Assembly (NCBI GenBank): GCA_024635665.1
Contig: JAGXIM010000155.1
Coordinates: 1-34,285, forward strand
From: Salinimicrobium sp.
Lineage (GTDB): Bacteria; Bacteroidota; Bacteroidia; Flavobacteriales; Flavobacteriaceae
Direction: 5' to 3'
DNA length: 34,285 nucleotides
Position numbers and translations under genes: made by a program. The notes beneath the pieces are model-generated. The model had not been told where the DNA came from. It saw nothing but the letters and a program-made list of their open reading frames with translations, and ran no database searches. Of this stretch, positions 19,963 through 34,285 are shown piece after piece (position 1 is the stretch's first letter; each line of letters begins with the position of its first letter).

Positions 19963-20769
19963 ATGCAAAAACAAATAAGCAGCCTCCAAAACCCAGCGGT
20001 AAAAAAGCTCCTGCAGCTTCAGGAGAAATCCAGGGTACGAAAGAAGGAGAACTCCTTTGTGATTGAAGGGCTTCGGGAAGTTGGATTAGCGATTAAAGGC
20101 GGGTTCCAACTAAAAGAATTCTACTACTGCGCCGACCTTTTTTCTTCAGAAGAAGTTGAAAGCCTTCTAAAAGAGCAGTTTTCTGAAGTTGAGATCACTG
20201 AAATCACCAAGGAGGTCTATGAAAAAATTGCCTATCGCGGAAGTACGGAAGGGGTTTTTGCTGTAGCTGCTTCAAAAGAGCTTTCACTTGAAAATATTCT
20301 TCTAAAAAAGGAAAATCCGTTAATTTTGATAGCTGAAGCCCCTGAAAAACCCGGAAATATTGGCGCTTTGCTTCGAACTGCCGATGCGGCCAATCTGGAT
20401 GCTGTTTTTATTGCCAATCCAAAAACCGATCTTTTCAACCCTAACATCATTCGGTCCAGCGTGGGCTGCGTGTTCACAAACCAACTCGCTACCGGAAGCA
20501 CTTCAGAAATTATTCAGTTTTTAAAGCATCGAAAAATTGCCATTTTTGGAGCTGCTTTACAGGCATCGGTTCCCTATGATGTGGTGGATTTCACTTCTGC
20601 CAGTGCAATTGTGGTAGGAACCGAAGCAACCGGCCTCAGTAGGGAATGGATTGAAAGCACCGACCAAAACATACTGATTCCTATGCAGGGTGAAATAGAT
20701 TCCCTGAACGTTTCGGTCGCCGCCGGAATCCTTATTTTTGAAGCCAAGAGGCAACGGAAATTCCTCTGA
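19963..20769 (+). CDS. TrmH/SpoU-family RNA methyltransferase
   Basis: SLQNPAVKKLLQLQEKSRVRKKENSFVIEGLREV, EAPEKPGNIGALLRTADAANLDAVF, VGTEATGLSREW, IPMQGEIDSLNVSVAAGILIFEAKRQR. Confidence 0.95.
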   Translation: MQKQISSLQNPAVKKLLQLQEKSRVRKKENSFVIEGLREVGLAIKGGFQLKEFYYCADLFSSEEVESLLKEQFSEVEITEITKEVYEKIAYRGSTEGVFAVAASKELSLENILLKKENPLILIAEAPEKPGNIGALLRTADAANLDAVFIANPKTDLFNPNIIRSSVGCVFTNQLATGSTSEIIQFLKHRKIAIFGAALQASVPYDVVDFTSASAIVVGTEATGLSREWIESTDQNILIPMQGEIDSLNVSVAAGILIFEAKRQRKFL

Positions 20770-20773
20770 AGGG

Positions 20774-20864
20774 TTTAAGGTCTAAGGTTTAAGGTAATTT
20801 GGAATTTGGAATTTGGAATTTATTATTTATTGTTAGTTGATCATTGTTAATTGTTAATTGCTAA
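20774..20864 (+). repeat. Degenerate 7-bp-phased intergenic repeat tract (13 units)
   Basis: TTTAAGG TCTAAGG TTTAAGG TAATTTG GAATTTG GAATTTG GAATTTA TTATTTA TTGTTAG TTGATCA TTGTTAA TTGTTAA TTGCTAA read without a register change. Confidence 0.8.
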
Positions 20865-20868
20865 AAGT

Positions 20869-22101
20869 TTGAGCTCAGAAACCCTTTTTTACATTATTGT
20901 TGCGATTATATTGCTGGATTTTGTCATAGATCAAATCCTCGATTTCCTAAACGCGAAACATTTTGATGATCCCATCCCGCTTTCTTTACAAGATGTGTTT
21001 GATGCAGAAGAATATCAAAAATCACAGCGCTATAATAAAACGCGACATAGATTCGGACTGGTCTCCTCCACTTTTTCATTAGTGGTGCTCCTGCTTTTTC
21101 TATTTTTCGACGGATTTGATTTTGTAGACCAGGTTGCGAGATCAATTTCTGAAAATCCTATTATTATAGCCCTTATTTTCTTTGGGATCATCATGTTGGG
21201 AAGTGACTTTTTATCGCTCCCGTTTTCTTACTACAGCACTTTTGTGATCGAGGAAAAGTTTGGTTTTAACAAGACCACCAAAAAGACATTTTTCCTCGAC
21301 AAATTAAAAGGCTGGGGAATGATGATAGTGGTTGGAGGCGCCATTCTCGCGCTTATTGTCTGGTTCTATCAATTTGCCGGAGAGGCCTTTTGGTGGTACG
21401 CCTGGATTTTGGTGGCGGTTTTCAGTATATTTCTAAACATGTTCTATGCCCGTCTCATCGTGCCATTGTTCAACAAACAAAATCCACTTCCAGAAGGGTC
21501 TTTACGAAACAAGATCGAAAATTATGCTCAAAAAGAAGGTTTTAAACTGGAAAAGATCTTCGTAATAGATGGCTCCAAAAGAAGCACCAAGGCGAATGCT
21601 TATTTCTCGGGCTTCGGAAATGAAAAAAGGGTAACACTTTATGACACACTTATCAACGACCTGGAGGAAGAAGAGATCATTGCAGTACTTGCACATGAAG
21701 TAGGCCACTACCGGAAAAACCATGTAATCGTCAACCTTATCATCAGCATTCTTACCACGGGCTTCACCCTTTGGCTATTGTCCCTTTTTGTGGGGAATCC
21801 ATTGTTATCGCATGCTCTGGGGGTTGAAAACCACGGATTTCATATTGGATTGGTGGCTTTTGGTCTTCTGTACAGTCCCATTTCTGAAATAACAGGCATT
21901 ATCATGAATTACCTGTCGCGAAAATTTGAATATCACGCAGATAATTTTGCCAGGCGAACGTACAGTTCCGGGCCGTTGGTTTCTGGTCTTAAAAAACTTT
22001 CAAAAAACAGTTTAAGTAATCTCACCCCACATCCTGCTTATGTTTTTGTTCATTATTCCCATCCCCCGCTTTACAAACGTTTTAGAAACCTGCTCGATTA
22101 A
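20869..22101 (+). CDS. M48-family metalloprotease (Ste24/CAAX prenyl protease-like)
   Basis: VLAHEVGHYRKNH zinc motif, EYHADNFA, multiple TMs; start TTG 20869 (or TTG 20851 inside the repeat), no ATG nearby. Confidence 0.92.
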   Translation: MSSETLFYIIVAIILLDFVIDQILDFLNAKHFDDPIPLSLQDVFDAEEYQKSQRYNKTRHRFGLVSSTFSLVVLLLFLFFDGFDFVDQVARSISENPIIIALIFFGIIMLGSDFLSLPFSYYSTFVIEEKFGFNKTTKKTFFLDKLKGWGMMIVVGGAILALIVWFYQFAGEAFWWYAWILVAVFSIFLNMFYARLIVPLFNKQNPLPEGSLRNKIENYAQKEGFKLEKIFVIDGSKRSTKANAYFSGFGNEKRVTLYDTLINDLEEEEIIAVLAHEVGHYRKNHVIVNLIISILTTGFTLWLLSLFVGNPLLSHALGVENHGFHIGLVAFGLLYSPISEITGIIMNYLSRKFEYHADNFARRTYSSGPLVSGLKKLSKNSLSNLTPHPAYVFVHYSHPPLYKRFRNLLD

Positions 22102-33602: not shown

Positions 33603-34285
33603 ATGTCTGACAAAGAAAACCTGCCCGAGAAAAAGCTTTCGGAAAATGAAGATAAGAACCTTGAAAAAAAGGTGAAAAAGGAACAACCGGAAACTCTTCA
33701 GCCAGCGGATCAAATAGTTGAAAAACCTTCCGAAGAAAAAGGCAATGAGGAAAAAAACGATGCCATAGAAGATGCGATGGTCGATGAGGCCAGCACTTCA
33801 GAAAAGAAGGGCAATACAACCCAATCCTCTCCAGAAGCTGCACTGCACTCTGACGAAGAAGATGAGGCAAAGGCTGAAGCCGCTTCCCAGGAAAGTATTT
33901 CCGGCGAACAAAACTCGGAAGACACATCTAAGAAGCAAAAATCGGAACCGGAAGAACCTTTAGAAGCCGAGAAAAAACTTGCAGCTTCCCAACCCGAAGA
34001 AGAAAAAAAACCTTCCAAAAATGACATTTCTGAAGGGGAAGAAACTGCAGTAAAATCAACTTCAGAAGCTTCTGAAGATGATAAAATCCAGGAAGATAAA
34101 GAGGAAACTTCGACTCCAAAGCAAAAATCCGAACCGGAAGAACCTTTAGAAGCCGGGAAAAAACTTGCAGCTTCCCAACCCGAAGAAGAAAAAAACCCTT
34201 CCAAAAATGACATTTCTGAAGGGGAAGAAACTGCAGTAAAATCAACTTCAGAAGCTTCTGAAGATGATAAAATCCAGGAAGATAA
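33603..34285 (+). CDS. Low-complexity acidic N-terminus of a large protein, probably DUF349 family, truncated by window edge
   Basis: Open frame from ATG 33603 to window end: MSDKENLPEKKLSENEDKNLEKK...; E/K/S-rich; position after aroE suggests DUF349 (inference). Confidence 0.7.
   Translation, partial: MSDKENLPEKKLSENEDKNLEKKVKKEQPETLQPADQIVEKPSEEKGNEEKNDAIEDAMVDEASTSEKKGNTTQSSPEAALHSDEEDEAKAEAASQESISGEQNSEDTSKKQKSEPEEPLEAEKKLAASQPEEEKKPSKNDISEGEETAVKSTSEASEDDKIQEDKEETSTPKQKSEPEEPLEAGKKLAASQPEEEKNPSKNDISEGEETAVKSTSEASEDDKIQED
33933..34285 (+). repeat. In-frame tandem duplication, 186-bp period (62 aa)
   Basis: Copy from 33933 (aagcaaaaatcggaaccgg...) repeated from 34119 (aagcaaaaatccgaaccgg...) with 3 substitutions over 167 visible bp; second copy reaches the window edge. 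Confidence 0.95.

Follow-up and report, generated by a model that had tools for sequence, protein, structure and literature searches.

A composite heptad tract between two genes of Salinimicrobium

How did a short intergenic spacer of Salinimicrobium sp. come to be built of about 13 units of seven bases, and does the resulting tract have a role at the gene that it adjoins? The window, by which we mean the whole stretch of 34,285 nt analysed, is contig 19 of a MAG of 2.16 Mb (76% complete, 164 contigs). Its relevant features are:

19963–20769, plus strand: SpoU-family RNA methyltransferase, the upstream gene (Pfam PF00588, 1e-34)
20772–20864, no strand assigned: composite heptad tract of 93 bases, about 13 units in one register (period-7 identity and Tandem Repeats Finder)
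20772–20795, no strand assigned: TTTAAGG-type units, 3.4 copies (Tandem Repeats Finder, 88% matches), starting 2 bases past the SpoU stop
20796–20821, no strand assigned: GAATTTG-type units, 3.7 copies (Tandem Repeats Finder, 100% matches), with GGAATTT units at the orthologous place in the same-genus relatives G005 and G007
20828–20836, plus strand: TATTGTTAG at the place of the same-genus box TATATTAG (alignment; spacing off by one base, no intact box)
20829–20864, no strand assigned: TTGTTAA-type units, 5.1 copies (Tandem Repeats Finder, 75% matches, and alignment), flanked by the promoter-like remnant and the start codon
20869–22101, plus strand: M48 (Ste24/CAAX-prenyl-protease-like) membrane metallopeptidase with HEVGH motif and a genus-conserved TTG start (Pfam PF16491, 1e-60; PF01435, 1e-34)

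From position 20774 the units read TTTAAGG TCTAAGG TTTAAGG TAATTTG GAATTTG GAATTTG GAATTTA TTATTTA TTGTTAG TTGATCA TTGTTAA TTGTTAA TTGCTAA, and the 13 consecutive 7-mers of the initial annotation agree exactly with this order and its coordinates. Across 20770–20871 the identity at offset 7 is 0.726 (73%) compared to 0.338 ± 0.046 in dinucleotide shuffles, with 0 of 20,000 shuffles scoring as high, which rules out a chance AT-rich spacer and bears out the annotated idea of an expanded and drifted element phased at 7 bp. The highest score for any period from 4 to 20 across 5,000 shuffles was 0.565, and the period-7 maximum of the entire window begins at 20773. Tandem Repeats Finder divides the tract into the three adjoining period-7 arrays listed above. 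The mean number of differences out of 7 rises with growing unit separation from 1.7 through 2.5, 3.6, 4.3 and 4.9 to 5.3, and thus comes to the random level of about 5 once units stand five or six apart. As this rise is smooth, a single in-phase drifting array describes the tract better than three independent arrays, in agreement with the proposal that the unit families follow each other without a register change; the walk-like profile is suggestive rather than conclusive, because arrays chosen for similarity of adjacent units favour such a profile.

The tract is intergenic, between the SpoU stop at 20769 and the conserved start at 20869. Its last base lies 4 bases short of TTG 20869, so that of the two possibilities annotated, abutting or entering the protease start, the former applies. 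With a period of exactly 7 beyond chance, a location between genes and many further loci in the genome, it is a member of the intergenic heptad-repeat kind (LSSR, STRR, TAACTGA). We detected neither ACTG nor CAGT in the tract, the core which at 7-base spacing characterises TAACTGA and ACTGN3 arrays, nor a stable inverted repeat of hairpin, REP or MITE-like type (folding z 0.13 against shuffles). Its local history appears readable from comparison with relatives, while any functional role is only putative.

Period 7 in the genome and the family

Heptads at other loci, and at the orthologous junction of relatives (see below), had been named as a check on the annotation, and both were found. In sampled stretches of the source genome, 303 kb in total, there are six intergenic arrays of period 7, none of periods 4–6 and 8–13 and two of period 14 (2 x 7), with few such arrays in coding DNA. 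Period 7 leads likewise in G009 (5 versus 1 intergenic arrays), in G023 (18 versus at most 2) and among 80 loci of the family. Composite heptad arrays recur at other loci of the source genome; in G023 one array runs for 30 units in one register from AGAACAT through ACTGAGG to ACTTAAT. In other composite arrays, too, unit similarity decays smoothly with separation.

Some loci were noted in passing. GGAATTT heptads stand directly before the ATG of a gene with a product starting MYLEIV in the same genome (L002, 1498–1532, G000:C83), and ACTG units occupy that place in two other genera (L199, L201); we take this gene to encode ATP synthase epsilon, judged by eye. At 33933–34285 of the window a 186-base tandem repeat of 1.9 copies (98% matches) is cut off by the end of the contig, so a longer repeat probably broke the assembly here.

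The SpoU-M48 gap in related species and the origin of the tract

The nearest named relatives found for the M48 protein belong to Christiangramia/Gramella and others of the Flavobacteriaceae. Heptads at the same gap differ in number and kind of units among related species: (GTTGCGG)n/(GTTGTGG)n is present in G006 and G008, ACTCATT/ACTCACT in G002 and GGAATTT in G005 and G007, all of the same genus, and at the family level Gelidibacter (L064, L095) has ACTG-type units, a Christiangramia MAG (L055) has GTGAAGC mixed with CAATAAA, and G034 has ATTATCA units. A family-wide hot spot at this junction was considered but not supported (3/51 versus 10/422 gaps, p=0.16). Because the junction is not significantly richer in heptads than other gaps across the family, its repeats are best read as turnover of a general feature, not as proof of a special site.

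Other repeat kinds occur here as well. In two same-genus gaps (L026, from 356; L027, from 287) a short ORF is inserted amid CACCCC...GGAGGGG palindromic repeats, in L026 with heptad stretches on both sides; the ORF presumably encodes a DUF559-like endonuclease, judged by eye. The gap of L028 extends over 850 bases and is made up of long units that are nearly identical, plus a run of N.

Of the candidate protease starts TTG 20851 and TTG 20869, the comparison retains only the latter, since a TTG is found at its position in 9 of 11 same-genus relatives and an ATG in the other two. Eight of the nine relatives with TTG carry TATATTAG or TATCTTAG and the ninth TATATTTA, about 26–39 bases upstream of the last base of the start codon. 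From its sequence, TATATTAG would be a sigma-A-like box; it agrees loosely with the flavobacterial sigma-A -7 box, TAnnTTTG (PMC9723704). No TAnnTTTG is present within 20770–20868 of the window. In the alignment, GGAATTT units directly precede the box in G005 and G007, as the GAATTTG units do in the window tract, and from TATTGTTAG the sequence continues toward the start as TTGATCA TTGTTAA TTGTTAA TTGCTAA. The SpoU and M48 genes overlap or lie at most about 25 bases apart in several other genera of the Flavobacteriaceae, and on account of these short or overlapping gaps they likely form an operon.

On balance we think that the tract arose by repeated 7-base slippage duplication in the spacer, which captured neighbouring sequence and was followed by drift. 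Slipped-strand replication, preferring steps of 7, would repeatedly add tandem copies at the intercistronic array, each gain copying whatever 7-mer stands at the array edge, with point mutations accumulating afterwards. The genus presumably had an ancestral GGAATTT stretch just upstream of the promoter-like box TATATTAG. In the lineage of the window, TTTAAGG units are on the SpoU side, the box has changed to TATTGTTAG, and TTGTTAG-like units would have multiplied between the altered box and the TTG start; the TTGTTAA family thus probably grew from a changed promoter-like sequence adjoining older GAATTTG units. The protease would then be expected to depend mainly on read-through transcription from SpoU and to be translated without coupling. 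The species of the window is represented by a single MAG, and the heptad differences are known between species.

Slippage can raise the copy number, and no further process is required for the window tract. According to Mrazek (2007), cited in PMC4679880, most genomes have heptads as their commonest class of long repeats, and a 7-nt polymerase contact has been put forward as the cause; 7-nt indels between Cyanothece strains are also known (PMC4679880). Simple slippage accounts neither for the prevalence of 7 over 5, 6 or 8 nor for the kept core and polarity of the ACTG arrays described below.

ACTGNNN arrays with a conserved core and fixed polarity

(ACTGNNN)n arrays with four such cores were identified in 55 of 151 family genomes, ACTG being constant and NNN varied, as in ACTGCCT ACTGCGT ACTGAAA ACTGCTT ACTGTCT ACTGTTT ACTGAAG ACTGTTG from G174. 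The spacing is almost exclusively 7, with 762 matches in ten rich genomes versus 9 at spacing 6 (two-base spacers) and 3 at spacing 8 (four-base spacers). In units beside three divergent ACTG units each core base is kept in 80–89%, while the triplet agrees with its neighbour in 34–59%, and the complete core is present in 41 of 56 such flank units; these had not been used for selection and come from stretches not chosen for ACTG. In an open scan of all tetramers at spacing 7, ACTG ranks first in the source genome together with G009 and in G023. A minimal-change test on the full set of arrays gave a null result for core retention (p 0.97), because composite arrays mix cores and counts of distinct letters saturate, and the flank-unit test was used instead. 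Core retention was weak in a small sample from G165.

Among a wider sample of Bacteroidota the pattern is present in 40 of 118 genomes, counting the source genome and other family members. In some other Bacteroidota the reversed control GTCA equals or exceeds ACTG in frequency (ACTG versus GTCA: 201 versus 435 in G290, 0 versus 123 in G280), which rules out ACTG as a universal core and makes it a habit of certain lineages. G290, a Bacteroidota genome of 2.4 Mb, holds very many heptad matches of both types.

The arrays are oriented. The ACTG strand has its 3' end 2–20 bases before a same-strand start in 16 of 19 cases and within about 16 bases of the stop of an antisense gene in 20 of 30; the 5' end is free. 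The genes in these counts are ORFs from mechanical calling, and stop codons contributed by the array itself can pull stops toward arrays without explaining the orientation. As sampled stretches contained no ACTG arrays in G288 and six in G165, density was low and polarity was retested on the matches listed; in three genomes from other families of the class the rule holds for 16 arrays and fails for 4 (p=0.012). An extension of the rule to every heptad family, by the A/C-rich strand, gave only 23 versus 13, so it is weak for heptads with other units. Slippage and drift do not predict the kept core, free triplets and fixed polarity of the ACTG arrays, which point to selection or some biased process.

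Could the same process have shaped the window tract? Heptads in general might be a selected cis-element, i.e. short-core sites with free spacers, placed every 7 bases at gene edges for a putative nucleic-acid-binding protein (of cold-shock or S1 type, of RRM type as an idea only, or a DNA-binding protein), with the window tract as a variant or decayed form. The core columns, the exclusive spacing and the polarity favour this, as does the published observation that TAACTGA sets terminate beside start codons (PMC4679880). We nevertheless consider it unlikely: the window tract has no ACTG core nor any other single kept core, cores such as GTCA dominate in some Bacteroidota, and both the null minimal-change test and the G165 sample count against it. 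Moreover, transcripts would carry ACUG ahead of starts and CAGU behind stops, a difference that does not suit one RNA-binding protein.

Several known systems resemble these arrays. Mazel is said to have described STRR heptamers of cyanobacteria in 1990; they are likewise intergenic 7-base tandem repeats, but from another phylum, and the composite, drifting units of the window resemble them without demonstrated homology. The host belongs to the Flavobacteriaceae, so the annotated comparison to cyanobacteria serves as an analogy; within this family heptad repeats are partly described, namely in Gramella, Aequorivita and Elizabethkingia (PMC4679880). LSSRs of 5–11 nt (Mrazek 2007, cited in PMC4679880) share heptamers as the commonest class and slippage as the proposed origin, but are near-perfect, whereas the window tract would mostly escape a perfect-repeat search. 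TAACTGA intergenic heptamers are known from Beggiatoaceae, Cyanobacteria and five Bacteroidetes (MacGregor 2015, PMC4679880). They too have 7-base units in intergenic positions, are often mixed with other heptamers and often end beside a start codon; forward sets end at starts, and a reverse set in Flexibacter litoralis lies just after a stop (PMC4679880). They differ in that the window tract lacks a TAACTGA/ACTG core, and in that the ACTGN3 class takes any triplet while TAACTGA is one spelling. The close relatives of the Gramella forsetii and Aequorivita examples lack repeats. TAACTGA was interpreted as possibly horizontally spread (PMC4679880). Since TAACTGA is ACTGATA rotated, it falls within the wider ACTGN3 class, and horizontal transfer is not a necessary conclusion from how scattered its occurrence is.

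Taken broadly, Flavobacteria and other Bacteroidota might use a selected cis-element genome-wide. Its core, four fixed bases recurring at 7-base intervals with free triplets in between, would most often be ACTG and in some lineages another; the element would sit at gene edges and point to the gene. TAACTGA of giant sulfur bacteria and cyanobacteria would be one spelling of it and the window tract a drifted relative. We regard this as possible, if doubtful. The open-access literature searched, with subscription journals mostly outside its coverage, yielded no description of the wider ACTGN3 class, which is a more interesting lead than the window tract. The latter is one small case among gene-edge repeats of a kind that is widespread but hardly described; many of these keep a four-base core and vary the other three bases. 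The data indicate that many Bacteroidota heptad repeats are composite and degenerate, and therefore easily missed by perfect-repeat searches. With a kept core, free triplets and the 7-base step, it becomes testable why bacterial repeats are heptamers, an old question: under pure slippage all seven positions should decay equally, whereas with a bound protein or enzyme one expects core retention and polarity.

Inverted pairs and unit number

An opposing CAGT array is present within 200 bases of 12 of 57 ACTG arrays, always on the 5' side and never on the 3' side (background 0.01). Five intercistronic gaps (L177, L192, L196, L198, L200) have the layout stop-(NNNCAGT)n-loop-(ACTGNNN)n-start. On this basis, MITE- or BIME-like inverted elements or hairpins in intergenic gaps might have the arrays as their arms, and some gaps with opposing arrays fold far better than shuffles (z -6.3, -5.6, -4.9). 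Heptad gaps generally fold no better than control gaps (mean z -1.1 versus -1.3), which excludes an RNA hairpin as a general explanation and leaves inverted elements very improbable; with z 0.1, such a reading is already unlikely for the window tract. We have equally little confidence in a phase-variation switch, where unit number would tune the spacing of promoter or ribosome site to the TTG start: the array stops right before that start and units vary among related species, but imperfect units slow slippage, and the protease family appears to be of housekeeping type. Slippage duplication followed by drift stays our preferred origin of the tract.

At two loci (L174 and L179, around 1500) ACTG heptad arrays end at the 5' edge of an element (GGGGAATTAGCTCAGCTGG) which, judged by eye, we take to be a tRNA gene.
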